DNA from: a virus
DNA: 47,968 nucleotides
Reading direction: 5' to 3' (one strand)
IMG/VR virus record: IMGVR_UViG_3300027719_000028
Span: 1 to 47,968 of that record
Shown here piece after piece: positions 17,908-47,968 of this stretch. Position numbers and translations under genes: made by a program. Every line of letters begins with the position of its first letter. The stretch's first letter is position 1. The notes below the pieces were generated by a model. That model was not told where the DNA came from. It was given only the letters and a program-made list of their open reading frames with translations, and did not search any database.

Positions 17908-17912
17908 AAATT

Positions 17913-17938
17913 AGGGTGCAGAAATGCACTCTTTTTTT
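17913..17938 (+). terminator. Terminator of the late operon
   Basis: Stem GGGTGCA/TGCACTC (one GU pair), loop GAAA, then seven T. It closes the structural and lysis genes. Confidence 0.88.
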
Positions 17939-18385
17939 ACTTTCAAATTTTATAACCTTACTTTCAAAAAATAAAACCCCATCTACTTTCAAAAAATTCA
18001 ACCCCTTTCAAATTTTATAACCTTCATTGAAAATAAAGATTCAAATATATGTTAACATTTTATTAATTTTTACAAATCATGATTACATAATCTGACAATC
18101 TGAATAGTCTGAATATTCATATAAATTACAGGTTACAGGAAAATTACAGGAAGTTATCCACAGATGACCAAACCTGTAATCTCTGAAAGCCTTGATATGA
18201 CTCACTTTGTTATATATAAATTACTAATTACACCTTTTTCTTAATAAATAAAGTATTATAATAGTATAGAATAAGAGTAGAATAGCAAATTCCTGTAATC
18301 CCGTAATTCCTAGCACATGAATGGCTCAACCATGCGATTTGTTGGCATTACAACTTGATTTAATGGTTGTACGCAAAAGTAATTG
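17939..18385. other. Non-coding repeat-rich region, candidate replication origin
   Basis: This 447-base segment has no plausible gene. It holds ACTTTCAAA-type repeats (17939, 17960, 17985 and 18005), a 19-base repeat TTTCAAATTTTATAACCTT (17941-17959 and 18006-18024), TCTGA(A/C)-type repeats at 18091-18120, five copies of TTACAGG (18126, 18133 and 18144 direct; 18173 and 18292 inverted), a perfect DnaA box TTATCCACA (18154-18162), TTGATATGACT at 18192-18202, and a very AT-rich stretch to 18290. Iterons, a DnaA box and an AT-rich stretch are typical of an origin; this is inference. Confidence 0.55.
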
Positions 18386-18414
18386 TTGACTTTGGTTGCT
18401 GGATATGATATAAT
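18386..18414 (+). promoter_or_regulatory. Promoter of the sigma-like gene
   Basis: TTGACT, 17-base spacer, TATAAT. It opens the early/middle region directly after the repeat-rich segment. Confidence 0.85.
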
Positions 18415-18448
18415 TGTATTAAGACAAAGAATTATAAAGGAGGTTATT

Positions 18449-29328: not shown

Positions 29329-29330
29329 GG

Positions 29331-29390: not shown

Positions 29391-31316
29391 ATGAACCTTT
29401 TTAAAGGATATATTCCAAGTAAAGGTAAAATGCCCTTGTCTAGTGTTAAGACAGGGGAAATCCTCTCCGAGCCACCAACAACAGGAGATTATGTTGGGGT
29501 TTTGAGAGAGGATATAATACAACTTGACTTTGATGATGAGGGTAGTGCTAGAATCGTTTTAGATATAGTGGCATCATATAAATTGCGTTGTGATATATTG
29601 AAAACTGGCAGAGGAGTCCATCTGTATTTCATGGATGATGGTTGGATTAAGTCCCAGAGTGTAGGAGTTTTCAATGCCATAGGCTTATCTTGTGATATTG
29701 GATTGGGTATAAAGAATAGAGTTATACCTTTGAAAATAACCAGAGATAGAGAGGATGTAAGGATTGTCGATGGAGAGGAAATGGTAAGTGTTACCAAAGA
29801 AACTGTACTCAGAGAATGGCTACAGACTTATCCAGAACTCGATGTATTACCAGCTTTCCTAAGACCTATTGGTAAAACTGATTATGACCTTAAAAAATGC
29901 AATTCCAGAAATCAGACATTATTCAATTATATCTTGACATTACAATCACACAATTTCACCAAGGACGATATAAGGCGAACAATAAAGATAATCAATAAGT
30001 ATGTACTTTATGAACCATTGGACGATAAAGAGATAGATACCATAACGAGGGATGAGGCTTTTTCAGAGGAGTTATTCTACACAGATAAGGGTTCATTCAT
30101 GCACGATAGATTTGGTAATTATATGTTGACAAATTGCAATATACTCATGATAGATAACCAGCCACACATATATACCAAAGACCATCTGTATTCCAATGAC
30201 CCAAATGAGTTTGAGAAAATAATGCTTGACAAAATCCCAAGTTTGAAGGATGCCCAGCGAAAGGAAGTTTACAAGTATATTGGCTTGAAATGTGCGTTAA
30301 GAGGTGAGTTCGCAAATCCAAGATACGTTGGTTTAAAGAACACTATATTGGACATAGAAACAGGAGAGGAATTTCCATATTCTCCTAAATGGATAATCAA
30401 TAACAGGATTGACCATGACTACAATCCAGATGCCTACCATGAACAGATGGATAAAACACTTGATAAGGTGTGCTGTTATGATAAGCAGATAAGGATATTG
30501 TTGGAGGAAATTATTGGATATACTCTGTATCGTAAAAATTCAATGCAAGTATGTTTTATACTAACAGGAGAGGGTAGTAATGGAAAGTCAACGATTCTCA
30601 ATTGCATTAAAAGATTGCTTGGAAAACAAAACTATACTTCTTTGGACTTGCGAGAACTTGAAGAAACTTTCAAGCCAGCAGAGTTGTACAACAAACTGGC
30701 TAACATCGGTGATGATATATCTGCCAAATACTTGGAAAATTCTTCCGTATTCAAAAAAGTGGTTACTGGAGAATCTTTTATGGTGCAACGAAAATACGCA
30801 CAACCCTTTGAGTTGGAATGTTATGCCACACAGATATTTTGTGCCAATGAACTTCCACAAGTGCATGATAAGTCTGATGGATTCACACGAAGAATAGTCA
30901 TACTTCCGTTCAATGCCAAGTTTACAAAGCTGGATGCTGACTATGACCCATTTGTAGAAGACAAATTGATGGCAGATGAAGCTATGCAGTATATGTTAAA
31001 GTTGGCAATAGAGGGTCTTAAAAGAGTCATATACAACAGACAATTCACTAAATCTGATAAGGGTGAAGGTGAAAAAGCTGACTATATGAAACTCAATAAC
31101 AACATCCTTGAATGGTTTGAAAGTGAACCTTCAATAGAGAACGAAAGTGTAAATGACGTATACCTTGCATATCAAGTTTGGTGTACTCAGAATGGCTGTA
31201 TGCCAGTTAAAAAGCTTAATTTTAGCAAGGAAATCAAGAAGGAGTTTGGATTAACCTCTAAACCTAAGACGATACAAGGAAAGTCGGTGAGAATTTATGC
31301 TAAAGATATTGACTAA
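29391..31316 (+). CDS. Primase-helicase (PrimPol N-terminus, D5/P4-type SF3 helicase)
   Basis: A 641-aa protein. The N-terminal domain has PrimPol acidic and His motifs (IIQLDFDDEG near 46, GRGVHLYF near 77). A D5_N-like linker leads to an SF3 helicase with Walker A GEGSNGKST at about 393-401, Walker B-like IGDDISAKYL and TQIFCANELPQVHDKSDG. The C-terminal ~60 residues (VNDVYLAYQVWCTQNGCMPV) are a winged-helix domain, repeated as a separate protein at 41937. It unwinds the fork and makes primers for the family B polymerase. Confidence 0.9.
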   Translation: MNLFKGYIPSKGKMPLSSVKTGEILSEPPTTGDYVGVLREDIIQLDFDDEGSARIVLDIVASYKLRCDILKTGRGVHLYFMDDGWIKSQSVGVFNAIGLSCDIGLGIKNRVIPLKITRDREDVRIVDGEEMVSVTKETVLREWLQTYPELDVLPAFLRPIGKTDYDLKKCNSRNQTLFNYILTLQSHNFTKDDIRRTIKIINKYVLYEPLDDKEIDTITRDEAFSEELFYTDKGSFMHDRFGNYMLTNCNILMIDNQPHIYTKDHLYSNDPNEFEKIMLDKIPSLKDAQRKEVYKYIGLKCALRGEFANPRYVGLKNTILDIETGEEFPYSPKWIINNRIDHDYNPDAYHEQMDKTLDKVCCYDKQIRILLEEIIGYTLYRKNSMQVCFILTGEGSNGKSTILNCIKRLLGKQNYTSLDLRELEETFKPAELYNKLANIGDDISAKYLENSSVFKKVVTGESFMVQRKYAQPFELECYATQIFCANELPQVHDKSDGFTRRIVILPFNAKFTKLDADYDPFVEDKLMADEAMQYMLKLAIEGLKRVIYNRQFTKSDKGEGEKADYMKLNNNILEWFESEPSIENESVNDVYLAYQVWCTQNGCMPVKKLNFSKEIKKEFGLTSKPKTIQGKSVRIYAKDID

Positions 31317-31818
31317 ACCATTATTTGGATATGAGTCAGAATATAATATATGTGAAGATGGAACTATAATTAAAATCAATCCTTGGAGATTACAAGAGGG
31401 TGGAATTGTAAAAGCTAATATTTGTGAAAAGGGATATGTATATGTAAACTTATTTAAAAATGGTAAACATAAAAGACATAGATTGCATAGATTAATGGCA
31501 CAAACCTTCATACCTAACCCAAATAACTTACCAGAGGTCAACCATAAGGATGAAATTAAAACAAATAATAAGATTGATAATTTAGAATGGTGTGATAGAA
31601 AATACAATAATAATTATGGTACAAGAACTAAACGAGCAACTACACATTGTATTGGAAATAATTATAATAGAAAAGTTTCAATAGAAGATGATGTTCCCAA
31701 ATTTATACAATTATATGATAGTGGATTAAACTATTCAGATATTGGACATATAATGGGTTTTAGTAGAAGAACTGTATCAAATTATATTAAGAAATATGTT
31801 GGGGAGGATGAAGTATGA
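31297..31818 (+). CDS. HNH homing endonuclease with C-terminal HTH
   Basis: A 173-aa protein with an HNH core (RHRLHRLMAQTFI, VNHKDEIKTNNKIDNLEWCD) and a C-terminal helix-turn-helix (DSGLNYSDIGHIMGFSRRTV). Its ATG lies inside the primase 3' end (20-base overlap) and its stop overlaps the next start by 4 bases. The HNH core is close to that of the 18990 protein. Confidence 0.88.
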   Translation: MLKILTKPLFGYESEYNICEDGTIIKINPWRLQEGGIVKANICEKGYVYVNLFKNGKHKRHRLHRLMAQTFIPNPNNLPEVNHKDEIKTNNKIDNLEWCDRKYNNNYGTRTKRATTHCIGNNYNRKVSIEDDVPKFIQLYDSGLNYSDIGHIMGFSRRTVSNYIKKYVGEDEV

Positions 31819-32423
31819 AGACTATAATTAATGGTATAACAGGCACATGGAAAATGGCTAAAAATAAATGTAGAACAACGGTAAATAAGGAATATTCGGA
31901 TGTTGAACCATCCCCTTCCTTTATTTACAAGTTACTCATATCAGAACATTCACCAATAAGGCTTATATCAGTTGACTGGAGTTGGAAATCAATGCCATAT
32001 TGGTTATCCACAGAATGGTCGAGGCATAAGTTTGAGAAGTATATCTCTACCCAGAGGACAGACCGAACAGGAGTTGATAGGTCAGAATTACCACAGGGAG
32101 CGAGAGTTAACTTTGATGGGTATGCCAATGCACAACACCTCATAGATGCTTGGAGAAAGCGATTATGTAGACAAGCAACCAAAGAGGCACAGGAGTCTGC
32201 TATGGACTTTAAACGTAAGCTTCATGATGTGGAGGAACAGTTATCTGATGTACTCGTTCCAAATTGCGTATATCGTGGGGGATGTCCAGAATTTACACCA
32301 TGTGCATTTTATAGTCAGTTCGTTAATTACTGTTATGAGAACAGTGTCAACATGAGTTATATCAAGGCTCGATATGATGCTTATAATGAGTTTATAGATA
32401 TTCCAGAATGGTTAAGACAGTGA
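31815..32423 (+). CDS. ThyX-like (flavin-dependent thymidylate synthase) protein, divergent
   Basis: A 202-aa protein. EHSPIRLISVDWSW and WSRHKFEKYISTQRTDR resemble the ThyX pattern (EHS..., then RHRxxSxNExSxR), with LPQGAR after it, and CRQATKEAQESAMDF fits the second helical part. Key ThyX motif positions differ (KFEKYISTQ in place of RxxSxNE), so activity is uncertain. It would make dTMP from dUMP, matching the dUTPase and RNR nearby. Confidence 0.62.
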   Translation: MKTIINGITGTWKMAKNKCRTTVNKEYSDVEPSPSFIYKLLISEHSPIRLISVDWSWKSMPYWLSTEWSRHKFEKYISTQRTDRTGVDRSELPQGARVNFDGYANAQHLIDAWRKRLCRQATKEAQESAMDFKRKLHDVEEQLSDVLVPNCVYRGGCPEFTPCAFYSQFVNYCYENSVNMSYIKARYDAYNEFIDIPEWLRQ

Positions 32424-32428
32424 ACTAT

Positions 32429-32680
32429 ATGAATAAATTGCGTCCGACATTGGAGGTGAGAAAAACGAAACAACAATGTATATTTAAGCAAAAAATAATA
32501 CTTTTAATTATGTTTTTAACAAAATACTCAAAGTTTAAGGCAACTATAGTTTGTTGCGGTAAATGTGGGAGTATAAAAATTAAATATATCAACGGAAAAC
32601 AAAACAAATATATTTACACATCGACTTATCAATGCTTGAATTGCGGGGCAACAGCTTCATGTACTGAAATATGGAAGTGA
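32429..32680 (+). CDS. Small zinc-ribbon-like protein
   Basis: About 83 aa with CCGKCG and CLNCGATASC, a typical four-Cys zinc ribbon. The start is unclear: ATG 32429 is close to the upstream stop, and 32408 and 32510 are also in frame. No strong ribosome site, so coupling is likely. Confidence 0.5.
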   Translation: MNKLRPTLEVRKTKQQCIFKQKIILLIMFLTKYSKFKATIVCCGKCGSIKIKYINGKQNKYIYTSTYQCLNCGATASCTEIWK

Positions 32681-32703
32681 AAAAATGGCGAAGGAGTTTT
32701 TTT

Positions 32704-32850
32704 ATGAAAATATATCTATATAGCACAGAAGTTTTAGATGAAGTGTATAGAATAACTTTTGGAGAAGATGCAGTAAACATAGAGTTTAATGAAATTGGAA
32801 GTGAAACCGTAGATGTTCCAATTAAGTCTATTATGACAATAGAAAGTTAA
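32704..32850 (+). CDS. Small acidic protein
   Basis: A 48-aa protein, MKIYLYSTEVLDEVYRI..., acidic and beta-rich, with GAAGGAG 8 bases before the ATG. It is just upstream of the MazF-like gene but on the other side of that gene's promoter. It does not resemble known MazE antitoxins. Confidence 0.55.
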   Translation: MKIYLYSTEVLDEVYRITFGEDAVNIEFNEIGSETVDVPIKSIMTIES

Positions 32851-32875
32851 TCGCAATACAAAAAATATTGTGATT
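32849..32875. promoter_or_regulatory. Inverted repeat upstream of the MazF-like gene promoter
   Basis: AATCGCAATA (32849-32858) pairs with TATTGTGATT (32866-32875), one GU, loop CAAAAAA. It ends 8 bases before the -35 and has no U-run, so an operator is as likely as a terminator. Confidence 0.45.
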
Positions 32876-32883
32876 GATGTATG

Positions 32884-32912
32884 TTGACAACCTTTTAAAA
32901 CTATGATATAAT
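32884..32912 (+). promoter_or_regulatory. Sigma-A promoter of the MazF-like gene
   Basis: TTGACA, 17-base spacer, TATAAT, then AATATTATAG. Confidence 0.9.
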
Positions 32913-32944
32913 AATATTATAGTAAACGAAAGGGAGTTGTTAAT

Positions 32945-33265
32945 GTGTTAAGGGGAGAAATTTATTGGGTGGATTTAGGTATAGGGAAGGGTTCAGAACA
33001 GGCTGGTCACAGACCATGTTTAGTAATCCAAAATGATAGGGGGAACAAGTTTTCCCCTACTACCATCGTCCTTCCAATCACAAAGGCTACAAAGAGATTC
33101 ACAGAAACACATGTTCCAGTTGAGGGTTTGAGAGAGCCATCCAACATATTATGCGAACAGATTAGGACAGTTGATAAGACTAGATTTGGTAAGTACATTA
33201 CTAAAGTAAGTGATGGCACAATGGTTGAAGTAGCGAAGAAAATGTGCTTGACATTTGGTATGTAA
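32945..33265 (+). CDS. MazF/PemK-like toxin (endoribonuclease)
   Basis: A 106-aa protein matching the MazF family along its length: RGEIYWVDLGIGKGSEQAGH, RPCLVIQNDRGN, TTIVLPITKATKR, ILCEQIRTVDK. Residues implicated in catalysis in MazF (Arg in the RP loop, Thr in PIT) are present. MazF enzymes cut mRNA at short sites. GTG start with GGGAG. No MazE-type gene lies beside it. Confidence 0.85.
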   Translation: MLRGEIYWVDLGIGKGSEQAGHRPCLVIQNDRGNKFSPTTIVLPITKATKRFTETHVPVEGLREPSNILCEQIRTVDKTRFGKYITKVSDGTMVEVAKKMCLTFGM

Positions 33266-33276
33266 TGTGATATAAT
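33248..33276 (+). promoter_or_regulatory. Sigma-A promoter inside the MazF-like gene end
   Basis: TTGACA, 17-base spacer, TATAAT; the -35 is within the last codons of the toxin gene. Drives the nrd genes. Confidence 0.88.
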
Positions 33277-33298
33277 AGATATATAAGGTGGTGATTGA

Positions 33299-33499
33299 GT
33301 GATATTATATAGTAATGATTGCATCAAGTGTAGAATTCTAAAATCTGAATTAGATGTAAATGGTTTTGAATATGAAGTTTCAAGTGACTATAGGAAATTA
33401 CTTGAAAAGAACATTAGGTCAGCACCATGTCTTGAGTTAGAAGATGGGAGTATTCTTCTGTTTGAAGAAGCCCTAGAGTATGTACAGAAAGGAAGATAA
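33299..33499 (+). CDS. Glutaredoxin-like protein
   Basis: A 66-aa protein, ILYSNDCIKCRILKSELDVN with a CxxC active site, then VSSDYRKLL, IRSAPCLELEDG (the cis-Pro region) and EEALEYVQKG. GTG start after AAGGTGGTG. It overlaps the region before nrdD and may reduce the anaerobic reductase or a partner. Confidence 0.72.
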   Translation: MILYSNDCIKCRILKSELDVNGFEYEVSSDYRKLLEKNIRSAPCLELEDGSILLFEEALEYVQKGR

Positions 33500-33500
33500 T

Positions 33501-35270
33501 ATGGAAAAACAATTATTGGATGCAAAGAAGTTAGTTGAAGATTACTTATTCGACAAAGATTGGAGAACCAAGGAAAACTCAAACGCACCCAGAAGTTTTG
33601 GGTCGTTAAATAAATATATAATAGGTGAGGTTTCCAAGAACTACTGGTTGAATGAAGTATATCCTAAGAGAATAAAACGAGCATATTTAGATGGTGAAAT
33701 GCACATCCATGATTTAGGGGCGTTGACACTATATTGTGTTGGGTATTCACTTGAAACAATTCTATTAATGGGAGTTGTTGGAGTAAGTAATATACCAGTA
33801 TCAAGTCCAGCTAAGCATTTTAAGAGTGCGTTATCACAAGTAGTTAATTTAGCTACAGTATACCAAAACGAACAAGCTGGAGCAGTTGCGTTCAATTCAG
33901 TTGATACGTTGCTTGCACCATTTATAGCTTATGATTCCCTTTCCAAAGAGGATGTTAAACAGGAATTACAGAATTTTATATTTGCATTAAACAGTAATTC
34001 TAGGATGGGGGCAGAGCCAGCATTTACAAATATAACACTAGACATAACACCATCCCCAGATATGCTGGACAAGAAGATAATAATAGGTGGTAAATATAAA
34101 CCAGAAGTATATGGTGACTTCCAAAAGGAGATGGATTTATTCAACGAATGTTTCACTGAGATAATGTTAGAGGGTGATGCCAAAGGTCAACCATTCTCAT
34201 ATCCAGTATTAACCTATAATATAGGTAAGAGGTTTGATTGGAATAATCCCAAGAATGACAAAATATTTGAAATGGCTGGTAAATTTGGATATCCGTATTT
34301 TTCAAACTTTGTAAATTCAGATATGGATGAAAGTGATATACGTTCCATGTGTTGTAGATTGAGGTTAGACCTTACTGAATTACGAAAACGTAATGGAGGA
34401 TTGTTTGGTGCTGGTGATTCTACTGGAAGTATTGGAGTAGTAACCATTAATATGCCAAGAATTGGATATGTGTCCAAAAGTGAAAAGGAGTTTTTCAAGA
34501 GATTAGATTTAGTATTGGAGTTAGCTAAAGAAAGTCTTGAATTAAAACGAACCTTCTTAAATGATATGATATTAGGTGGTGAACTATTACCAGCTTATAT
34601 GAAATATGTAAGTACCATTGATAATCATTTTAGTACGATAGGTATAATTGGGTTCAATGAAATGTGTGAAAACTTCTTAGGTAAGGATATACTGTCACAA
34701 GAAGGTAGGGATTTTTCAATAAAAGTCGGTAATTATATTCTGGATAAGATAAAGGATTTCCAAGTAGAAACTGGTCATTTATATAATTATGAAGCCTCTC
34801 CCAGTGAGTCCACTTGTTATAGACTTGCTAAGAAGGATAAAGAATTATTCCCAGATATAATAACACAGGGTAAAACAGTCCCATATTATACAAACTCATG
34901 TCACATTCCAGTGTCTAAAGTAACTACTATAAATGATATGATAGCACACCAAGAACCGTTACAGACTCAGTTTACTGGGGGATGTGTAAATCACATTTAT
35001 TTAGATGGTGCAATATCTGGAGAACAAGCTAAACATATTGTTAAAACTTGTTTAACTAAGTATAGAAATCCATATATAAGTCTATCACCAGTAAATAGAT
35101 ATTGTCCAGAACATGGATATATTGAGGATAGAGTTGAGATTTGTCCTAAGTGTGGTGAGAAGTTGGATATCATGCAACGTATAACTGGTTATTTAAGAAA
35201 AGTAGATAACTTTAATGCTGGTAAAAAGGAAGAGTTTTATGAGAGAAAACAGTTTACTGGTGAAGATTAA
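33501..35270 (+). CDS. nrdD: Anaerobic (class III) ribonucleoside-triphosphate reductase
   Basis: A 589-aa enzyme converting NTPs to dNTPs with a glycyl radical. Seen are the N-terminal barrel (INMPRIGYVSKSEKEF), PYYTNSCHIPVSK, the GGCVNHIYL segment, a C-terminal zinc site (RYCPEHGYIEDRVEICPKCG) and RITGYL carrying the radical glycine. Oxygen destroys this radical, so the host is anaerobic when infected. The ATG at 33501 follows GAAAGGAAG. An HNH gene separates it from nrdG. Confidence 0.93.
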   Translation: MEKQLLDAKKLVEDYLFDKDWRTKENSNAPRSFGSLNKYIIGEVSKNYWLNEVYPKRIKRAYLDGEMHIHDLGALTLYCVGYSLETILLMGVVGVSNIPVSSPAKHFKSALSQVVNLATVYQNEQAGAVAFNSVDTLLAPFIAYDSLSKEDVKQELQNFIFALNSNSRMGAEPAFTNITLDITPSPDMLDKKIIIGGKYKPEVYGDFQKEMDLFNECFTEIMLEGDAKGQPFSYPVLTYNIGKRFDWNNPKNDKIFEMAGKFGYPYFSNFVNSDMDESDIRSMCCRLRLDLTELRKRNGGLFGAGDSTGSIGVVTINMPRIGYVSKSEKEFFKRLDLVLELAKESLELKRTFLNDMILGGELLPAYMKYVSTIDNHFSTIGIIGFNEMCENFLGKDILSQEGRDFSIKVGNYILDKIKDFQVETGHLYNYEASPSESTCYRLAKKDKELFPDIITQGKTVPYYTNSCHIPVSKVTTINDMIAHQEPLQTQFTGGCVNHIYLDGAISGEQAKHIVKTCLTKYRNPYISLSPVNRYCPEHGYIEDRVEICPKCGEKLDIMQRITGYLRKVDNFNAGKKEEFYERKQFTGED

Positions 35271-35638
35271 TGTATGGGGAATGGATTAAAGGTTATGAAA
35301 ATAAATACTCTATCACTACTGATGGTAGAGTATTTGCTCATGATTATCATAGACAAGGTATAATAATGGAAATGAAATGTAAACTATCTAATCGTGGATA
35401 TACTAGAGTTGGATTAAGAAAAGATGGTGGTAAACAACAATTTTATAGTGTTCACAGATTAGTAGCTGAAACGTATATTGAAAATCCATTAAACTATGAC
35501 CAAGTAAATCATATTGATGGTAATAAAAACAATAATAATGTGTCTAATCTGGAGTGGTGTAATCATAGTCAAAATGTAAAACACGCATATAAAACAGGGT
35601 TGATGACACCTTGGAATAAAAAGTTGGAGGTTGTATAA
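35270..35638 (+). CDS. HNH homing endonuclease between nrdD and nrdG
   Basis: A 122-aa protein with NUMOD4-like start (YGEWIKGYENKYSITTDGRV) and HNH core (FYSVHRLVAETYI, VNHIDGNKNNNNVSNLEWCN). Its start overlaps the nrdD stop and its stop overlaps the nrdG start by one base each. The endonuclease sits in the operon without breaking either gene. Confidence 0.88.
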   Translation: MYGEWIKGYENKYSITTDGRVFAHDYHRQGIIMEMKCKLSNRGYTRVGLRKDGGKQQFYSVHRLVAETYIENPLNYDQVNHIDGNKNNNNVSNLEWCNHSQNVKHAYKTGLMTPWNKKLEVV

Positions 35639-36201
35639 TGCAGATACGTTATAAATATATAGAACATGAGAGAACTCAAGACGCACCATGGATAGGAGCA
35701 TTAATATGTGCCATAGACTGTAAATTAAAATGCAAAGGATGTTTTAATCGTGACCTCAAGAAGATGGAAACGAAGAAAGCTACTGCAACGAAAATCATTG
35801 ATGAAGTGCTGGAGAACCCATTTAATGAAGGGATTATACTCGGTGGACTAGAATGGTCAAGACAGCCAGAAGAACTCATAGAACTCGTCACAGAGGCATC
35901 TGAGAGGGGTCTAAAGGTAATGATATATACTGGACTCAATCTAGGTGAGTTTGAAATGGTTATTGGAAAGGCTTGTTGTGATAAGGTTGGAGTCAAGGAA
36001 TTACCAAAAGACTATGCTGAGAAGGACATGATGTATGCTTGCATTGGTGGAATGGTTCTTGACAATGCTATCCATGATGACTATTATATCAAAACTGGAA
36101 GATACAATGCAGATAACCTAACGTATGATAGGGTACAATTTGGTGTTAAATTAGCTTCAAGTAATCAGAATGTTATAAAAATACAGAAAACGGAGGAATA
36201 A
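35638..36201 (+). CDS. nrdG: NrdD-activating radical SAM protein
   Basis: A 187-aa protein with the radical-SAM cluster motif CKLKCKGC (CxxxCxxC, Cys28, 32, 35), GLEWSRQPEELIEL, and a C-terminal RVQFGVKLASSNQNV. It transfers an electron to S-adenosylmethionine to generate the glycyl radical on NrdD. Preceded by GGAGG inside the HNH gene end. Confidence 0.92.
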   Translation: MQIRYKYIEHERTQDAPWIGALICAIDCKLKCKGCFNRDLKKMETKKATATKIIDEVLENPFNEGIILGGLEWSRQPEELIELVTEASERGLKVMIYTGLNLGEFEMVIGKACCDKVGVKELPKDYAEKDMMYACIGGMVLDNAIHDDYYIKTGRYNADNLTYDRVQFGVKLASSNQNVIKIQKTEE

Positions 36202-36204
36202 TAT

Positions 36205-36627
36205 ATGAGAGTGAAGTTGGTGTTGGAGAACGCAAGATTACCAAAGAGGTCAAACCCTACGGATGCTGGGGCAGACTTATTCAGTCCAATAGATATAGTC
36301 ATACCAGCACATGGTTTTGGATTCATAGACCTAGGATTCCAGATGGAATTACCAGCTAATACTGCTGGATTTATAGTTGCTAGAAGTGGAATAGGCACTA
36401 AGAAGGGTATAGTACCTAGACAGTGCATTGGAACAGTAGATGAGCCTTATAGAAACAATGTAGGCATCATGGTAGAGAACAAGGGTGACGAGGACTTTCA
36501 AATTAGCATAGGTGATAGGATAGCACAACTTGTTATCGTGCCTGTACTATATGAGGAAATGGTAGAATCTGACAATCTTGATATGACACAGGATAGAATG
36601 GGTGGATTCGGTAGCACTGGTAAATAA
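36205..36627 (+). CDS. dut: dUTPase
   Basis: A 140-aa trimeric dUTP pyrophosphatase with all five motifs: DAGADLF, RSGIGTKKGI, GTVDEPYRNNVGI (motif III slightly varied from GxIDxxYRG), GDRIAQLVIVP and RMGGFGSTGK. It turns dUTP into dUMP, feeding thymidylate synthesis and keeping uracil out of DNA. Confidence 0.93.
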   Translation: MRVKLVLENARLPKRSNPTDAGADLFSPIDIVIPAHGFGFIDLGFQMELPANTAGFIVARSGIGTKKGIVPRQCIGTVDEPYRNNVGIMVENKGDEDFQISIGDRIAQLVIVPVLYEEMVESDNLDMTQDRMGGFGSTGK

Positions 36628-36629
36628 TT

Positions 36630-36656
36630 GAAGGGGTTAATTCCCCTTCTTTTTTT
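36630..36656 (+). terminator. Terminator after dut
   Basis: Perfect 7-bp stem GAAGGGG/CCCCTTC, loop TTAATT, then seven T. Confidence 0.92.
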
Positions 36657-36667
36657 ATACATTTTTA

Positions 36668-36696
36668 TTGACATGGTAGATTATACATGATATAAT
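36668..36696 (+). promoter_or_regulatory. Sigma-A promoter
   Basis: TTGACA, 17-base spacer, TATAAT, then AGTATTATAAGGTTGAAAGG, the commonest leader form here. Confidence 0.92.
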
Positions 36697-36728
36697 AGTA
36701 TTATAAGGTTGAAAGGGAGGAAAATAAA

Positions 36729-37367
36729 ATGGCAAGTATAAAACCAATGATAGAAAATTTAGAGGTTCTTTTCAAAAGCTTGAATGACGAGTATTTCAAT
36801 GGAGAGTTGCAGAAAGCAGTAATAACAATTAGCCCAGATACAACTAGAGGTGCGTATGGTTGGTGTACATCATGGAAAGCATGGCAAGAAGAAGGTTCAG
36901 ACGAGGGATACTATGAAATCAACTTGTGTGCAGAGCATACTGCAAGAGGTTACAAGGCATTAACTGAAACACTACTGCATGAAATGGTTCATCTGTATAA
37001 CCTCCAGATAGGTGTACAGGACACATCCAGAGGTGGCACATACCACAACAAGAAGTTCAAAACAATGGCTGAGTCCAAGGGTCTTATCGTTGAGCAGAGC
37101 CAGAAGTACGGATGGGCTTACACACAGCTTACTCCAGAGGTTAATGCGTTCCTTGATACTATAACTGGAATTGACTTTACACTGTTCAGAGCAAAAGTTG
37201 AAAATTCATCTTCAAAAAAGAAGTCAAGTTCAAGGAAGTACACATGCCCATTGTGTGGTAAGTCAGTAAGAGCAACAAAAGAAATAAGAATATTGTGTGG
37301 AGAGTGTTCCAGTGAGGATGAATTGGTATTGATGGAACTTGAAGCTACTGAGGAGGATGATGTATAA
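36729..37367 (+). CDS. SprT-like zinc metalloprotein
   Basis: A 212-aa protein with HEMVH at residues 84-88 (HExxH), a following THYHNKKFK-type helix (TYHNKKFKTMAES), and a C-terminal zinc ribbon (YTCPLCGKSV, LCGECS). It belongs to the SprT/Spartan family of zinc proteases linked to DNA-protein crosslink repair. A phage role near replication is likely but undefined. Confidence 0.85.
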   Translation: MASIKPMIENLEVLFKSLNDEYFNGELQKAVITISPDTTRGAYGWCTSWKAWQEEGSDEGYYEINLCAEHTARGYKALTETLLHEMVHLYNLQIGVQDTSRGGTYHNKKFKTMAESKGLIVEQSQKYGWAYTQLTPEVNAFLDTITGIDFTLFRAKVENSSSKKKSSSRKYTCPLCGKSVRATKEIRILCGECSSEDELVLMELEATEEDDV

Positions 37368-37510
37368 TGACTATATTCTTTGTGTATGATACCCAATATC
37401 AAGAGGTCTGGGGTTCTGGGTCTACTGATTTAGATGAAATGAAATTGAAATTGGATGGGTTAGTCAAAGCCTATGGTAATCATTTTAAAATTCATTCAGT
37501 TTATGTTTAA
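37367..37510 (+). CDS. Small protein after the SprT-like gene
   Basis: A 47-aa protein, MTIFFVYDTQYQEVWGSGST..., whose ATG overlaps the SprT stop and which has GAGGAGG upstream. Function unknown. Confidence 0.6.
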   Translation: MTIFFVYDTQYQEVWGSGSTDLDEMKLKLDGLVKAYGNHFKIHSVYV

Positions 37511-37518
37511 ATAAGGGG

Positions 37519-37547
37519 TTGACAGCCCCTCCTACATATGTTATAAT
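37519..37547 (+). promoter_or_regulatory. Sigma-A promoter with inverted repeat around -35
   Basis: TTGACA, 17-base spacer, TATAAT, extended TGT. The -35 lies between AGGGG and CCCCT (37514-37530). Confidence 0.9.
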
Positions 37548-37579
37548 AAATTATAGAGTTGATTAAGGGAGGTTATATT

Positions 37580-37864
37580 ATGTCAAAGTATCATTGTTTA
37601 GATTGTAATAAGGTATTCAGCAAAGCTGGTCAGAGGGATGAAGGAATAGGTCACTATGAGTTTTGGGGAAGTTGTGGGTGTGATATACAGATGGTTAACT
37701 GCTGTCCAGAATGTGGTGGTGATTATGAGGAAGTTGTAGAGGCTTTTAATTGTCCAGAATGTGGATGGGTTGGATTCGATGATGTCTGTCAAGATTGTGG
37801 ACATGAACTAGTTGACATGGTTTGGTTGGGTGAAGAAAACGATATATATGAGAGGGAGTGTTGA
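37580..37864 (+). CDS. Multi-zinc-ribbon protein
   Basis: A 94-aa protein with many Cys pairs: CLDCNK, CGCD, CCPECG, NCPECGWVG and CQDCGHEL. This gives two or three zinc sites. It starts at ATG 37580 after GGGAGG. Such rubredoxin/zinc-ribbon proteins act as protein or nucleic acid adaptors; specific function unknown. Confidence 0.65.
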   Translation: MSKYHCLDCNKVFSKAGQRDEGIGHYEFWGSCGCDIQMVNCCPECGGDYEEVVEAFNCPECGWVGFDDVCQDCGHELVDMVWLGEENDIYEREC

Positions 37865-37865
37865 T

Positions 37866-38069
37866 ATGGGACGTAGACCAAAAGAGGATTTATCATATTT
37901 TACAAATGATGCTGGTGAAATACAGTACAATAAACATTGTATGGAATGTCCATATCCATGTAAACAATCATTTAGAGCAGTTATAAGCTGTCCAAGATAT
38001 GATGTTTGTAAGAAAAGTTTAAGAAAACCAAGAAAAAGTGTTGACAAAGTATCCCCTCGCATGGTATAA
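37866..38069 (+). CDS. Small Cys-rich basic protein
   Basis: A 67-aa protein with HCMECPYPCKQ and SCPRYDVCKKS, five or six Cys, and a basic tail. GGGAG lies 8 bases upstream. Its 3' end contains the next promoter's -35 and -10. Confidence 0.6.
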   Translation: MGRRPKEDLSYFTNDAGEIQYNKHCMECPYPCKQSFRAVISCPRYDVCKKSLRKPRKSVDKVSPRMV

Positions 38070-38070
38070 T
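38041..38070 (+). promoter_or_regulatory. Promoter inside the preceding gene's end
   Basis: TTGACA, 18-base spacer, TATAAT. Confidence 0.85.
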
Positions 38071-38097
38071 TAGTTATAAGGTTAAGGGAGGTAATGT

Positions 38098-38271
38098 ATG
38101 AAAGAAATTAAAGTCGGTACAATAAGTGGTATAGAACTACTTATGCACAGAAAAGGTAAATTCAATCGAACTCAAGATGATGTTAAAAGAGGTGTTGGAG
38201 TTTACACACCACTTAAACATAAAAAGAAAACCAAACAAAAATTAAAAAATGAAATTAGGGGGGTTTATTAA
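38098..38271 (+). CDS. Small basic protein
   Basis: A 57-aa protein, MKEIKVGTISGIELLMHRKG..., with a Lys-rich C-terminus (KHKKKTKQKLKN). GGGAGG lies upstream; the stop overlaps the next ATG. Likely nucleic-acid contacting by charge only; no family seen. Confidence 0.6.
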   Translation: MKEIKVGTISGIELLMHRKGKFNRTQDDVKRGVGVYTPLKHKKKTKQKLKNEIRGVY

Positions 38272-39629
38272 TGAGTAACTTCAAGATAGGTGATAAGGTA
38301 ATAGGTGTAACATCGATAGCATCGTATAATGGATTCACAGGAACAGTTGTGGGTGATGATGGTACTGAGGAATGTAACTTACTGGTAGATTTCGAGGGTT
38401 GGCATGGTGGTCATGATGGACATGGTGTAGCTAAACTTACACATAGTGTAGATGGTTGCTACTTTGTATATGACCATCATATAGAAAAAATAGAGGAGGA
38501 TATAAAAGTGGGAATTAAAGTTGGAGACATTGTAGAAGTAGTAAATACTGGAGCAACTTACGATACTTATAAAGATTGGTACGATACTCATTTAGCCGAT
38601 AAAGGATGGTTTATGAATGACGCTTCACCAGATAAAGAAAGGTTTTATGAAGTGGTTGCGATTGCCCCACATTCATTAAAATATGCAGATAGTGAACTTA
38701 TTTATGGTATATCGGATTTGTCAGTGGACGACCCACAAGTATTCATAATTGGGTATTATGGTATTAACTTAGTAGAGTCTAAAAAAGAAGAAATAAAGGA
38801 GGAAGTTGTTATGGAATTTAGAGTTGGGGATAGAGTTAAAGGGATAAATGGTTGTATTGGTAATAGAATAGGAATAGTTCGGGCAATTGATGAGATAACT
38901 TGTTTAGTTCAGTTTGCTGAGGATTTTGATGGGCACAATGCCTCTGGTACACATCCAGAATTAGAATTGTCTGGTATGAACAGCTGGAACTGTATGAAGG
39001 GTGAATTAAAGATACTATCAAGAGAAGTTAAGATATATGAAGTTGGTGACTTTGTAAAGTGCATTGATATCACCGAAGAAAACCATGAGAGGCTTATAAG
39101 AGGTACTGTATACACTGTTGCGGGTGTGTCAGTATTCGATGGCAACATAGTATATGCTGTCAAGGATTCAAGTGGTAACTTATTCCACACAATGGATAGG
39201 TTTGAAAAGGTAGGACAGTCTGATGTTGAGCCAGAAATTGGTTGGATAAGATGTGATGTTGGTGTTGAAGGTACTGAAAAGAAACAGATGACATGTGGTG
39301 CTGGATTCACTGCTCTCGACTTTGAACCAACAAATGCTGAGAGATTCTATATGGTAATGGATGAAATGCTCACTACCTACACAGCTAAGAACTCAGACTA
39401 TGGTAATTCGTTTGAGAAGACATTTGAGGACTATGGAATGACTAGCATAGCTGTTAGACTTAGCGACAAGTACCTTAGACTTAGACAGCTTACTATGACT
39501 GGTATGGCAGAGGTCAAGGGTGAATCAGTAAGAGATACCCTTCTGGATATGGCAAACTACTCAATCATGGCAATAATGGAAATGGATAAGAGGGTTGGTG
39601 TTCCAGTACCTTCACATGGAGGTAAATAA
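38271..39629 (+). CDS. SH3-like repeats fused to a DUF1599 nucleotide-modification domain
   Basis: A 452-aa protein. Four modules begin FKIGDKVIGV (3), KVGDIVEVV (about 84), FRVGDRVKGI (about 185) and YEVGDFVKCI (about 262). The C-terminal ~100 residues (ERFYMVMDEMLTTYTAKNSD, YGNSFEKTFEDYG, AVRLSDKYLRLRQL, RDTLLDMANYSIMAIMEMD) match DUF1599, a MazG-like family linked to modified nucleotides. Inferred role: handling a nucleotide, with SH3-like parts as adaptors. Confidence 0.72.
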   Translation: MSNFKIGDKVIGVTSIASYNGFTGTVVGDDGTEECNLLVDFEGWHGGHDGHGVAKLTHSVDGCYFVYDHHIEKIEEDIKVGIKVGDIVEVVNTGATYDTYKDWYDTHLADKGWFMNDASPDKERFYEVVAIAPHSLKYADSELIYGISDLSVDDPQVFIIGYYGINLVESKKEEIKEEVVMEFRVGDRVKGINGCIGNRIGIVRAIDEITCLVQFAEDFDGHNASGTHPELELSGMNSWNCMKGELKILSREVKIYEVGDFVKCIDITEENHERLIRGTVYTVAGVSVFDGNIVYAVKDSSGNLFHTMDRFEKVGQSDVEPEIGWIRCDVGVEGTEKKQMTCGAGFTALDFEPTNAERFYMVMDEMLTTYTAKNSDYGNSFEKTFEDYGMTSIAVRLSDKYLRLRQLTMTGMAEVKGESVRDTLLDMANYSIMAIMEMDKRVGVPVPSHGGK

Positions 39630-39630
39630 T

Positions 39631-39735
39631 ATGTTTTTGAAAGTTATCTTTCACTTATTCATGATTGGAATTACAGGCGGATTATGGATATGGATTATGT
39701 TGATAATGTTGTTCGTAAAATTGATGAGGGGGTAG
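39631..39735 (+). CDS. Small membrane peptide
   Basis: A 34-aa peptide, MFLKVIFHLFMIGITGGLWI..., one membrane helix, close after the preceding stop. Translation is likely but start context is modest (GGAGG 9 bases upstream). Confidence 0.5.
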   Translation: MFLKVIFHLFMIGITGGLWIWIMLIMLFVKLMRG

Positions 39736-39739
39736 TCAA

Positions 39740-39955
39740 ATGGAAATGTTTATTGAGAGGTTAATAGAACAGGGTAAGTTGCTGGAGGTGGCTATAGATG
39801 CTCTAACGAGCAGTATGGAGGAGTTTGCTGAACTTGCCAAGATTGGTCTAGAAAATCCAGATATAGATAGGAAAGCTGTTGCTGATGTAATTGACAACCA
39901 TGAAGTATTCATAAGAATTAATGAGAAGTTTGAAAAGCTGGAGGAAATCATTTAA
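39740..39955 (+). CDS. Small helical acidic protein
   Basis: A 71-aa protein, MEMFIERLIEQGKLLEVAID..., entirely helical and acidic. GAGGGGG precedes the ATG. Function unknown; it could dimerise by coiled coil. Confidence 0.6.
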   Translation: MEMFIERLIEQGKLLEVAIDALTSSMEEFAELAKIGLENPDIDRKAVADVIDNHEVFIRINEKFEKLEEII

Positions 39956-39974
39956 CCAGAAGGAGGTGATTTCA

Positions 39975-40019
39975 ATGGGATGTGGAGCAAAGAAAACTAA
40001 GAAAAAGAAGAAAAAGTAG
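39975..40019 (+). CDS. 14-residue polylysine micropeptide
   Basis: MGCGAKKTKKKKKK. It has an almost perfect ribosome-binding sequence (AAGGAGGTGATTTCA) 5-8 bases before the ATG, and its stop is directly followed by the next promoter. The strong initiation signal supports real translation; the function is unknown. Confidence 0.5.
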   Translation: MGCGAKKTKKKKKK

Positions 40020-40048
40020 TTGACAGTCATCCTTGGCTATGGTATAAT
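40020..40048 (+). promoter_or_regulatory. Sigma-A promoter
   Basis: TTGACA, 17-base spacer, TATAAT, then TATATTATAG. Confidence 0.9.
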
Positions 40049-40095
40049 TATATTATAGTCAAGGAAATACATTAAATAAAGGGAGGATGTTGGTT

Positions 40096-40215
40096 ATGGA
40101 AAGAATTGAAGAAATGATGGGTGAGTATTTAACTCCAATGATTGACTTGATAAGTGAGTTCATAGTACCAGATACAAATGGATTTGAATATATGGTAGAG
40201 GAGGTTGAGTTTTAA
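40096..40215 (+). CDS. Small acidic protein
   Basis: A 39-aa protein, MERIEEMMGEYLTPMIDLIS..., acidic. GGGAGGATG lies upstream. The stop overlaps the next start by one base. Confidence 0.55.
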   Translation: MERIEEMMGEYLTPMIDLISEFIVPDTNGFEYMVEEVEF

Positions 40216-40376
40216 TGGTAGAAAAACATGTAGTAATAAGAGCATTGAATGATATTAAAACAGTTTGCAAATTAAGCAACTGTTCAGAATGCCCATTCTC
40301 TAATATTGTAAATAATATACCAACATATTGTCCATTTGATGATGTTCCAGAAGATTGGGAAATAGATGAGTTGTAA
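40215..40376 (+). CDS. Small Cys-containing protein
   Basis: A 53-aa protein with VCKLSNCSECPFSN and YCPFDD, a possible four-Cys site. AGAGGAGG is just before the start. Overlaps the next gene by 11 bases. Confidence 0.58.
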   Translation: MVEKHVVIRALNDIKTVCKLSNCSECPFSNIVNNIPTYCPFDDVPEDWEIDEL

Positions 40377-40584
40377 AAAATGTGCAAGTTGTGTTTGTAC
40401 TTCTTGCAGAAATAGAGTTATTGGAACATGTGACAAGTGTTTTGATTGTGGTACTGGCTCATATAAAATTCCAAGAAAGCCATTGACAAGCTGTGAAAAG
40501 CATGTTATAATTATATTAAAGGATAAGAAAGGGAGGAAAAATAATGGAAAGAGAAATAGCAAAGCATTACTGTATGAGGTGTAA
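40366..40584 (+). CDS. Cys-cluster protein
   Basis: A 72-aa protein with nine to ten Cys in the first 45 residues (CKKCASCVCTSC, TCDKCFDCG, SCEK). The tail is basic. A full promoter lies in its last third, and it overlaps the next gene by 41 bases, so its C-terminal part could be fortuitous. Confidence 0.52.
   Translation: MSCKKCASCVCTSCRNRVIGTCDKCFDCGTGSYKIPRKPLTSCEKHVIIILKDKKGRKNNGKRNSKALLYEV
40483..40511 (+). promoter_or_regulatory. Sigma-A promoter inside the Cys-cluster gene
   Basis: TTGACA, 17-base spacer, TATAAT, extended TGT. Confidence 0.88.
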
Positions 40585-40672
40585 ATATGAGTCATTCTGT
40601 GAAAGAGGTTCTGAGAGGGTTGCTAAAGTCGAGGAAATACTGTTGGAATCGGCTAAGGAATATGTTAAATAG
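40544..40672 (+). CDS. Small Cys-containing protein
   Basis: A 42-aa protein, MEREIAKHYCMRCKYESFCE..., with CMRC and one more Cys, then a helix. GGGAGG is 8 bases upstream and the promoter just before it supports expression. Confidence 0.6.
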   Translation: MEREIAKHYCMRCKYESFCERGSERVAKVEEILLESAKEYVK

Positions 40673-40675
40673 GGG

Positions 40676-40704
40676 TTGACAAACCCCTCTACATACTGTA
40701 TAAT
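40676..40704 (+). promoter_or_regulatory. Sigma-A promoter with inverted repeat around -35
   Basis: TTGACA, 17-base spacer, TATAAT. The -35 lies between AGGGG (40671) and CCCCT (40684-40688). Confidence 0.9.
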
Positions 40705-40737
40705 AGTATTATAAGGTAGAAAAAAGGAGTGATTGAA

Positions 40738-41784: not shown

Positions 41785-41944
41785 TAAGGTGTTAAGTATA
41801 GTAAATATGTGTCTAGTTGCTCTGGTATTCATGTCAGCAATAGCTACAGGGTCATATATAGAACCATATTGGTTACTAGTGCTGTTCCTGTATCAGTGGA
41901 CAGATTATCAATGTGATAAGATGAGGGATGAGATAGATGGCTAG
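41771..41944 (+). CDS. Small membrane protein
   Basis: A 57-aa protein with two hydrophobic stretches (IVNMCLVALVFMSAIA and YWLLVLFLYQW). Overlaps neighbours by 14 and 8 bases. Function unknown. Confidence 0.6.
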   Translation: MTKFSKVLSIVNMCLVALVFMSAIATGSYIEPYWLLVLFLYQWTDYQCDKMRDEIDG

Positions 41945-42272
41945 ATACACTTATAGAGATATATATGGAAAGGCTAGATTAGGGCATGGAGTTACACTAC
42001 AAGAGGCTACAGATGCTCTTTGCGAGTTAGAGGAAAAGTTAAATAAAGAAGTATATAAGACAAATTCAGTTAATTACTGGCTTGCTAAAATGCCCAAAAT
42101 AAGTGGTAGAATTGTAAATGATGTTTATGTTGAGTACAGGACATATTGTTATGAAACAGGAAAGCGAGCAGTAAATAAGATAGAGTTTTCCAGACAACTT
42201 GTAAAATTTGGATATCATTCTAAGGTTGTAAATATTGGTGGTAAGAGTTTTAGGGAATATTATCTCAAATAA
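41937..42272 (+). CDS. Standalone primase-C-terminal-like (D5 winged-helix) protein
   Basis: A 111-aa protein. Its second half (VNDVYVEYRTYCYETGKRAV, then FSRQLVKFGYHSKVVNIGGK) matches the last ~60 residues of the primase-helicase at 29391 (VNDVYLAYQVWCTQNGCMPV, FSKEIKKEFG, GKSVRIY). No helicase motifs are present. That domain is a DNA-binding winged helix in D5-type primases. The gene directly precedes a repeat-rich non-coding region. An origin- or operator-binding role is inferred. Confidence 0.7.
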   Translation: MARYTYRDIYGKARLGHGVTLQEATDALCELEEKLNKEVYKTNSVNYWLAKMPKISGRIVNDVYVEYRTYCYETGKRAVNKIEFSRQLVKFGYHSKVVNIGGKSFREYYLK

Positions 42273-42613
42273 ATTACAGCTTTTTTGATAAAATTACAAG
42301 AAATTACAAGTAGACTGTCATTCCCCTTAAACCTAGTCATATCAATGGTTTGAGGGGATAATTCTTCTACAGATGTTGAAAACAATGTGTAACCTTCTGT
42401 AACCCTTGATATGACTGGTGTTAGACTATGTTAATTACTAATATTCTTTATTATTTATAAAAATAGAATAGTAAAATAGTAGTAGTATATAAGAGAGTAG
42501 GGGAAAAAGTGAGTAATTAGTAATTTAAGGCTGTGAAGCAAGTCATATCAACATGTTAGGGACATTACAGCTTTTTATCGGGTTGTACGTTAGTTGTAAC
42601 TTGTAATTTAATA
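42273..42613. other. Non-coding region with exact repeats and a large hairpin
   Basis: No gene fits these 341 bases. They hold TTGATATGACT at 42406-42416 and its complement at 42335-42345 and 42541-42551, an 11-bp hairpin (42323-42357), AAATTACA(A/G) repeats, and an AT-rich stretch (42430-42500). The overall order resembles 18.12-18.30 kb, before the sigma-like gene. Confidence 0.55.
42323..42357. other. 11-bp hairpin with TTGATATGACT complement in the loop
   Basis: CCCCTTAAACC (42323-42333) pairs with GGTTTGAGGGG (42347-42357), one GU. The 13-base loop is TAGTCATATCAAT, containing the repeat AGTCATATCAA. Confidence 0.75.
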
Positions 42614-42642
42614 TTGACTTCTAATTGTAAATCTGTTATAAT
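42614..42642 (+). promoter_or_regulatory. Promoter of the small terminase gene
   Basis: TTGACT, 17-base spacer, TATAAT, extended TGT. Confidence 0.88.
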
Positions 42643-42667
42643 GTATATGTAAAGGAGTTGATAATAA

Positions 42668-43195
42668 ATGCCTAGAACATATAAAAAGAAAGGTGTTCAT
42701 ACAAGCCCAGAAACGGCTGGTAAGCAGAACTTGGATGGGGTAGATTTACCTAAAGATGAAAGTGGATTGATGGCTAAGATTATGCCTGTTTACAAACATG
42801 GTAATGATAATAGAGGAATATATAAAGGACTTTGGACAGAGGATGCGTTGCGTGAGGAGATTGCAAAATTCTTCGATTATTGTGCAGAGGTTGAGTTGAA
42901 GCCTACAGTCCCAGCACTTCAATTGTGGTTGGATATAAATCGTTCCACATTATGGGAATGGCGAACAAAGCCCGAACGTCATGGGGTGAAATCCGACATT
43001 ATCGAACAGGCTTACAGGATTATGGAAATGTATCTTCAAAGTAACATCGACAAATATCCAACAGGCTCAATATTCCTACTCAAAACTACACATGGTCATG
43101 TTGAAACCAGCAAACTGGACATCACATCAGATGGCAAAGCAATATCAGACGTTGCAGATGTCAAGGACAGACTTTCACAACTTGGATTGGAGTAA
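42668..43195 (+). CDS. terS: Terminase small subunit
   Basis: A 175-aa protein. It has a helical N-terminal DNA-binding part (FFDYCAEVELKPTVPALQLW and LDINRSTLWEWRTK, a helix-turn-helix) and the family C-terminal pattern TGSIFLLKTTHGHVETSKLD, comparable to AGAIFNLKNNFGWKDK of other TerS proteins. It selects the packaging site for TerL. It is about 4.1 kb before terL, unusually far, with small genes between. Confidence 0.82.
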   Translation: MPRTYKKKGVHTSPETAGKQNLDGVDLPKDESGLMAKIMPVYKHGNDNRGIYKGLWTEDALREEIAKFFDYCAEVELKPTVPALQLWLDINRSTLWEWRTKPERHGVKSDIIEQAYRIMEMYLQSNIDKYPTGSIFLLKTTHGHVETSKLDITSDGKAISDVADVKDRLSQLGLE

Positions 43196-43201
43196 CAAAT
43201 T

Positions 43202-43225
43202 GCACTCAGAAATGGGTGCTTTTTT
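43202..43225 (+). terminator. Terminator after terS
   Basis: Stem GCACTC/GGGTGC (one GU), loop AGAAAT, then six T. Confidence 0.85.
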
Positions 43226-43677
43226 CATCCAGTAAAATAGTGGGGTTATATGCCCAAAAACAGCATTTTAAGAATGGGGCTATAGGCTGATTCCCAGACT
43301 CGACATTTCACGAATCTCAATTCTAAGCATATCTAAATATCTCCAACGTATACTTTGTTGACTAAGGGGGTCAAATCGCTTAGAAGGGCTGAAAATCGCA
43401 TAAATAATTATTATCCATTAGTAATCACTTTCAAACCCTTATTGAATGTTTACTTTCAAACTCTATACCTCTTTCAAACCCTACTTTCAAACCCCTTACT
43501 TTCAAACCCTATATATGGGTGTTTGGATATGGCTGGGAGGAACTGGGACTTCCAATAAATGTATATTAGTAATTGCTCATATACTAATTGTCTGAATATT
43601 AGTACAGTTCTGAAAATTTACTAGTACAGATGTTAATTGTCAGAATAATTTTAATATTGCGACTATTTAAAAATGAC
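43226..43677. other. Non-coding region with ACTTTCAAAC iterons
   Basis: No credible gene. Five copies of (A)CTTTCAAACYC start at 43427, 43452, 43470, 43483 and 43498. AATTGTCTGAATATTA at 43586-43601 is repeated at 44658-44673; AATTGTCAGAATAATT is at 43635. TTGAC-TAAGGGG-GTCAA forms an inverted repeat around 43358. It adjoins terS, so a packaging-site function is also possible. Confidence 0.5.
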
Positions 43678-47342: not shown

Positions 47343-47968
47343 CGATGGGTTAAGCATACAAGAAGTTGAACACTATGTTGATGTAATTATTCCTAAACTT
47401 GAAACTGAACTTTCAAGAAAAGACTTAGGTGATACAGAGGTTGTTGATTTATACAACCTCTACGTTGACATATTGAAGCTTGTAGCACCCCATAACTTTC
47501 ATTGTTACAATAAGTATCTTGAACTGGATGATGACCACAACTCACCAAACAAGGCTTTCTATCATCATAGGAAGAATCACATGTGGGACATGTTTGAGTC
47601 ATTTAACAGGATGGAGATATATGATGACTATGACCTATTGCTGATATCCATGCCACCTCGTTGTGGTAAGACCACTACTGGAATACGATTTCTTTCTTGG
47701 ATAATCGGTAGACATCCAGAGAGTACAGAACTTGCAACATCATACTCAGACTCAATCACCACATCGTTCTATATTGGTGTAATGGAGATTGTAGAAGGTC
47801 AGAGATTTAAAGAGGTATTCCCAGATGCTCCATTGGTTAATCAAAATGCCAAGAGAGAAGAAATATGGCTCAAGATTAAAAAGAGATATCCTTCTATCAC
47901 CTTCGTTCCTATCGGTGGTTCTATGACTGGTCGATGTGAAGCTGGTAAGTATCTCTATTGTGATGACT
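47332..47968 (+). CDS. terL: Terminase large subunit, N-terminal part (continues at 8)
   Basis: Residues 1-212 of the packaging ATPase. Walker A is MPPRCGKTT at about 107-115. GAGGTGG lies 5 bases before the ATG, within the GIY-YIG gene. The frame passes the circle junction and ends at 1057, about 520 aa in all. Confidence 0.93.
   Translation, partial: MLNSDGLSIQEVEHYVDVIIPKLETELSRKDLGDTEVVDLYNLYVDILKLVAPHNFHCYNKYLELDDDHNSPNKAFYHHRKNHMWDMFESFNRMEIYDDYDLLLISMPPRCGKTTTGIRFLSWIIGRHPESTELATSYSDSITTSFYIGVMEIVEGQRFKEVFPDAPLVNQNAKREEIWLKIKKRYPSITFVPIGGSMTGRCEAGKYLYCDD
47843..47968. repeat. Terminal direct repeat, right copy
   Basis: Identical to bases 6-131. The correct reading through the join is the one present here. 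Confidence 0.9.

Follow-up and report, generated by a model that had tools for sequence, protein, structure and literature searches.

The window analysed here is a circular phage record of 47,968 nucleotides (IMGVR_UViG_3300027719_000028), whose ends repeat each other (6-131 = 47843-47968). Its noncoding region B, upstream of terS, follows by about 50 bp the gene for a lone winged-helix domain rather than the gene for the primase-helicase, and carries iterons, an AT-rich tract and a hairpin with a repeat displayed in its loop (Table 1). A second noncoding region, A, shares the whole architecture of B, with the parts in the same order, a correspondence overlooked in the initial annotation. The two regions lie 24.2 kb apart, i.e., 51% of the genome.

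Table 1. Features of the window, with positions numbered along its full length
Feature	Position	Strand	Description
Region A	17910..18448		second noncoding origin-like region; iterons, AT tract, one TTGATATGACT (18192-18202)
Consensus DnaA box TTATCCACA	18154..18162	+	in region A
Region A AT tract	about 18215-18290		aligned with the relative G001
P4-family primase-helicase	29391..31316	+	641 aa; D5_N, DUF5906, C-terminal winged helix
Lone winged-helix domain gene	41937..42272	+	111 aa; homologue of the primase-helicase C-terminus
Region B	42273..42667		noncoding, origin-like; CTGTAAC/GTTACAG-type iterons at 42273, 42387, 42397, 42564, 42594
Hairpin	42322..42358	-	minus-strand reading TCCCCTCAAACC-A-TTGATATGACT-A-GGTTTAAGGGGA
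Hairpin arms	42322-42333; 42347-42358	+	TCCCCTTAAACC; GGTTTGAGGGGA
Hairpin loop	42334-42346	+	TAGTCATATCAAT
Conserved core AAACC-N-TTGATATNACT-N-GGTTT	42329..42351	-	common to origins of phages, satellites, plasmids
Second TTGATATGACT copy	42406..42416	+	faces AT tract; same place in the relative G001
Region B AT-rich tract	42429..42503	+	ends TATATAAGAGAGTAGGGG; aligned with the relative G001
Inverted TTAATTACTAAT elements	42431-42442; 42517-42528		flank the region B AT tract
Third TTGATATGACT copy	42541..42551	-	faces AT tract from opposite side

The stem of the hairpin comprises 12 bp, counting a flanking T-A pair and including one G-T pair, and closes a loop of 13 nt. The initial annotation had described the same structure with an 11-bp stem, and its count of four repeat copies in the genome likewise holds, with AGTCATATCAA present exactly at 18192 (-), 42335 (+), 42406 (-) and 42541 (+), three of these within 217 bp. 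Additional pairing of GTAGA with TCTAC (42310-42314/42366-42370) closes symmetric 7-nt internal loops, and the folding z-score of the 61-nt plus strand is -5.2 as RNA and -2.9 as DNA. Under strict criteria (at least 12 bp, at most one G-U pair and at least 6 G/C) this is the sole hairpin in the genome, as against a mean of 0.07 and a maximum of 1 in shuffled sequences; a looser search with unlimited G-U pairs returns many 12-bp hairpins. The minus strand of the core reads AAACC-A-TTGATATGACT-A-GGTTT, such that both the loop sequence and the inner arms of the conserved element are present. We regard the hairpin as quite probably the version of a conserved origin element that this phage carries. 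The copies at 18192, 42406 and 42541 lack good arms; those at 42406 and, in mirrored orientation, 42541 both face the AT tract, followed by TTAATTACTAAT-like steps. Since, read along one strand, the copy in the loop is complementary to that at 42406, the local hairpin would compete with a long-range stem in a longer RNA or single-stranded DNA.

When YTGTAAY was counted in 400-bp windows over the genome, the two densest were found to be those of B (7) and A (6). The iterons and the AT-rich unwinding tract typical of an origin served by a P4-family initiator-helicase are both present, and AT tracts similar to that of B are found in the relatives G001 and G003 and in the origin of phage Sfi21. 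The consensus DnaA box in region A is genuine, but the window as a whole shows no enrichment of such boxes (69 versus 98 expected), and its GC skew has no clear sign change of the origin kind. Neither region occupies the usual, albeit non-obligatory, site directly 3' of the primase/helicase gene; that gene ends at 31316, and the next ORF starts earlier, at 31297. The first gene past region A (18449-19015) encodes a helix-turn-helix/sigma-like protein that is kept in G001. A second repeat family, TACTTTCAAA (window 17940-18020 and 43425-43510; loci L013 and L101), is found next to region A in three phages of this kinship and 3' of terS in two. Elsewhere in the window, eight similar strong sigma-A-type promoter-like sequences (TTGACA...TATAAT, a 62-nt family) are spread across the early genes (22922-40722). 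The TTGATA of the repeat was also considered as a promoter -35 box and set aside, the -10 partners being weak.

The primase-helicase scores 177.8 bits against TIGR01613, with a cut-off of 108.7, which places it in the P4 family; the primases of Sfi21, the satellite Javan727 and the locus L148 also score above this cut-off. Its C-terminal winged-helix domain, for which DNA binding is predicted, could be aligned across 38 primase C-termini. The initial annotation had singled out the product of the gene at 41937 as a candidate binder of the hairpin, and its sequence shows it to be a stand-alone winged-helix homologue of the primase C-terminus. Its structural model is a winged helix with a helix-helix-beta-hairpin arrangement, with pLDDT of 91-95 over most of the domain and an unreliable N-terminal part. 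Matches of the modelled fold are weak and include the Orc1/Cdc6 initiator on origin DNA (E 3e-3) and RFX, with the P4 origin-binding domain appearing as a weak match far down the list. The profile of the 41937 product matches a DNA primase (PDB 7ola, E 8.5e-4). The P4-family primase-helicase of this phage is the likely initiator, and region B is preceded by the lone winged helix as if a unit comprising the primase 3' end and the origin had been copied there.

Among the relatives of the phage, G001 (52.6 kb; 76% identity in terL and 48% in terS) also has a gene for a lone primase-C-terminus-like domain upstream of B, together with a similar AT tract and iterons, and carries two exact copies of TTGATATGACT, one in its equivalent of A and the other in that of B. 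The initial annotation had proposed conservation of both the loop and the stem in relatives as a check on its reading, and the outcome goes partly against it: G001 keeps the 11-mer at both equivalent sites, and the hairpin is absent from its region B equivalent at terS. None of the near relatives shares the long outer stem of the present phage. In a third phage, G003, the A-like region resembles the others in its AT tract, differs in its iterons (GCTACGAGTT) and contains no exact TTGATATGACT, and the lone domain is absent. No relatives were recovered with terS alone as the query, nor did phage records give any blastn match to the 1-kb terS region; a search with a conserved noncoding pattern from downstream of terS retrieved the same relative only. 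This noncoding DNA 3' of terS (window 43180-43510; L009 5190-5520) is highly conserved with G001, without any change in GGGGCTATAGGCTGATTCCCAGACT, and gives way to TTACTTTCAAA repeats; it is a candidate packaging (cos/pac) site or RNA. G001 also has, about 0.6 kb 3' of terS, a stretch of about 41 bp (L009 5774-5815) holding three perfect DnaA boxes (TGTGGATAA), which are not seen at the equivalent spot of the window.

The element was further traced beyond these relatives. A 49-nt query gave short noncoding matches in Streptococcus satellite phages, directly 3' of the primase gene, as well as in phage 2638A and several plasmids, one of them beside a primase-family gene, although each match is individually weak (E 0.08 to 3). 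An exact search for the inner arms and loop (AACCNTTGATATGACTNGGTT) recovered 21 viral contigs and 61 genome stretches, with a P4-family primase within 500 bp at 12 of these 82 loci as opposed to none of 74 control loci (p = 3e-4), the controls deriving from a looser 11-mer pattern with 79 matches, mostly due to chance. Within the same distance, a tyrosine recombinase is found at 11 others of the 82 loci and at none of the 74 controls, mostly on account of one groEL-integrated element family, and serine recombinases lie near three pattern loci. In elements integrated at the 3' end of groEL, AACCCTTGATATGACTGGGTT lies in the interval that separates the tyrosine integrase gene from the attachment core, and in other elements with serine recombinases it is found near their ends (loci L194, L195, L207, L216, L219, L171, L180 and L211). 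Additionally, a type II-A CRISPR repeat of Lactobacillus plantarum contains TTTGATATGACTA (PMC5484467, PMC8066128), which is probably a coincidence.

A test independent of the motif started from 80 loci fetched on primase similarity alone, 65 of them distinct. Exact TTGATATGACT is present in eight of these 65 P4-family primase loci versus 0.67 expected from 300 letter permutations, several of the eight being related phages, so that the effective number is below eight. Six of the eight copies share the strand of the primase and follow it at a distance of 160-313 bp; of the other two, one follows it at 254 bp in the opposite orientation and the second is inside the gene. CTGTAAC-type iterons and AT tracts are mostly close by. 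Near-variants of the form TTGATAT[A/C/G/T]ACT keep the AAACC/GGTTT arms and add further primase loci. The most enriched 7-mer within 500 bp downstream of 61 primases is CTGTAAC (17 loci versus 2.3 expected), accompanied by AACCCTT (14 loci versus 3.7) and TATATA runs, and several phages of this set have four to seven CTGTAAC copies downstream of the primase. The closest primase relatives of the window, like the window itself, have no such repeats at this position, a pattern consistent with the origin having moved in this group. Our literature searches, incomplete in their coverage, placed the 11-mer in no origin paper and turned up no account of the element.

Taken together, these observations indicate that the hairpin, as a copy of an element recurring beside primase-helicase genes, most likely marks a replication start rather than a switch for the packaging gene. 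Judged by comparison with other replicons, region B can very probably be counted as an origin-type module of a P4-family primase-helicase system; that the hairpin belongs to this second origin module as its initiation element, and that the module is used by the phage's own primase-helicase, is probable, and is the best explanation of the data as a whole. The earlier suggestion of recognition by a protein, perhaps an initiator, fits with the presence of the element in origins of P4-family primase-helicases and with the iterons and AT tract of B, while the suggested strand-specific switch finds no favor, the association being with replication modules and not with terS. The proximity to terS is probably incidental or reflects a coupling of module borders. 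Mechanistically, the iterons would be bound by the primase-helicase through its winged helix, or by the lone homologue of that domain, following which the AT tract would melt and the inverted repeat could extrude on melted or supercoiled DNA. The extruded loop might then offer single-stranded TTGATATGACT for helicase loading or for the first primer, and the lone winged-helix protein might either compete for the same iterons or assist at them. Several observations sit uneasily with the origin reading: the recombinase-adjacent copies of the core in other elements are not explained by it, A and B are not directly downstream of the primase as is the case in many relatives, G001 lacks the hairpin at B, the 11-mer of A has no proper arms, and the GC skew gives no clear origin signal.

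The use of the loop as a single strand for loading or priming is the more doubtful part of this proposal, and is weighed against the reading in which the core is a duplex operator, i.e., an AAACC...GGTTT inverted repeat around the asymmetric 11-mer that serves a phage or host protein as a binding site in double-stranded DNA, with the hairpin never formed and the long stem of the window incidental. The mean fold energy of 26 family members (-6.11) is no better than that obtained with swapped outer arms (-6.13, p 0.51), and in a looser test that took in all pattern loci, pairing was slightly in excess (1.24 versus 0.87 bp). The stem covariation proposed earlier as a check is thus not clearly seen in the wider family, whose outer arms pair no better than swapped ones in the former test, and the inner arms, being conserved in sequence, are unable to show covariation. 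Accordingly, an inverted-repeat protein site in duplex DNA explains the core equally well, and the conservation in G001 of the 11-mer, which at 18192, 42406 and 42541 in the window lacks good arms, points in the same direction. Against this, the stem in the window is far stronger than expected by chance, and unrelated loci (L191, L193, L198 and the plasmid pND103) have long alternative stems around the same loop. We therefore regard the duplex operator as a serious contender, albeit one that falls short of being the probable reading.

The other alternatives are much less plausible. Transcription of the hairpin, with pairing of its loop to the downstream 42406 copy so as to control terS expression or an origin transcript, would accord with the strong fold of the plus-strand RNA noted above and with the long alternative stem that the two copies can build. 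However, the core is linked to primase genes and not to terS, and the single copy retained by G001 at B means that the loop/42406 pairing is not conserved, making such an RNA element improbable. Further, no intrinsic terminator (a stem followed by a T run) is predicted in 42200-42700, and Rfam models match only tRNAs, seven of whose genes form a cluster at 26024-26931. Still less probable is a nick site for a rolling-circle (HUH) initiator, with TTGATA displayed in the loop. This hexamer resembles the sequences nicked in the pC194 and phiX174 families, and is also looped on the 3.5-kb Streptococcus thermophilus plasmid pND103, which has a gene annotated as 'protein rep'; however, the element associates with P4-family primase-helicases and iteron origins, and no Rep_1 match was obtained among the proteins scanned, though the Rep_1 positive control also gave none. 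Least probable of all is an attachment or recombination site with inverted arms and a short overlap for a tyrosine recombinase: despite the above-mentioned enrichment of such recombinases, the present phage has neither a tyrosine nor a serine recombinase (PF00589 and PF00239, both of which matched their controls), the motif of the groEL elements lies beside the shared core and not inside it, and the motif recurs at origins far from integrases.

In its broadest form, the origin reading would cast AAACC-N-TTGATATNACT-N-GGTTT as a hitherto undescribed signal for initiation by P4-family primase-helicases, transferable among phages, satellites and plasmids and perhaps used near the ends of integrative elements as well, and would give the present phage two antipodal origins, one of them beside a detached initiator DNA-binding domain that tunes their use; as a whole, we offer this as a speculative and rather unlikely extension. 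P4-family primase-helicases replicate a very large number of phages, satellites, pathogenicity-island-type elements and plasmids, and their cis elements beyond the iterons are little defined. A recurring short hairpin, that of the Sfi21 origin included, could hence provide a sequence handle for finding origins in uncultured phages, and renders testable the question of what the hairpin contributes on top of the iterons. The window contributes a phage in which two such regions are separated by half the genome and the initiator DNA-binding domain also exists free-standing beside one of them.

Several known systems offer points of comparison. Hairpins near the origin serve a primase-helicase or primase in pRN1, which requires its stem-loop, and in RSF1010, whose ssi hairpins are primase start sites (PMC4234260). 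The pRN1 structure is larger (a stem of 21 nt and a loop of 58 nt) and is not accompanied by iterons, and no sequence relation to either system has been shown. In SaPI and SCCmec, the related helicases Rep and Cch2 read the origin iterons via a C-terminal dsDNA-binding domain, and the SCCmec origin also holds inverted repeats able to form hairpins (PMC7581432). These elements differ in having a single origin, downstream of the helicase gene; a role for the SCCmec hairpins is putative, deletion of the repeats having left binding unaffected. Phage P4 uses two separated cis regions, as proposed here for the window, differs in the Toprim-type primase of its alpha protein, and to our knowledge has no hairpin of this kind. 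The winged-helix domain of alpha binds the repeats of the P4 origin (ori1/crr), a likeness to the role proposed here (PMC4234260).

The origin of Sfi21 is annotated in the phage record (NC_000872 34487-34784) as a noncoding region of 302 bp after the primase gene, and is described as an independent origin that becomes active upon infection (PMC6356513). Unlike this origin, which is directly 3' of the primase gene, the window has two regions, both away from that gene and one of them following the lone winged-helix gene, and the loop and iteron sequences differ. Nevertheless, the two systems share iterons, an AT tract (ending in ATATATATAGAGAGAG in Sfi21) and, within the module, a primase gene of the P4 family (TIGR01613), as well as AAACC...GGTTT inverted repeats with TTGA loops, which in Sfi21 take the forms AAACCC-ATTGAAAATAAA-GGGTTT and AAACC-TTGATATATAAGG-GGTTT, one on each side of its AT tract.
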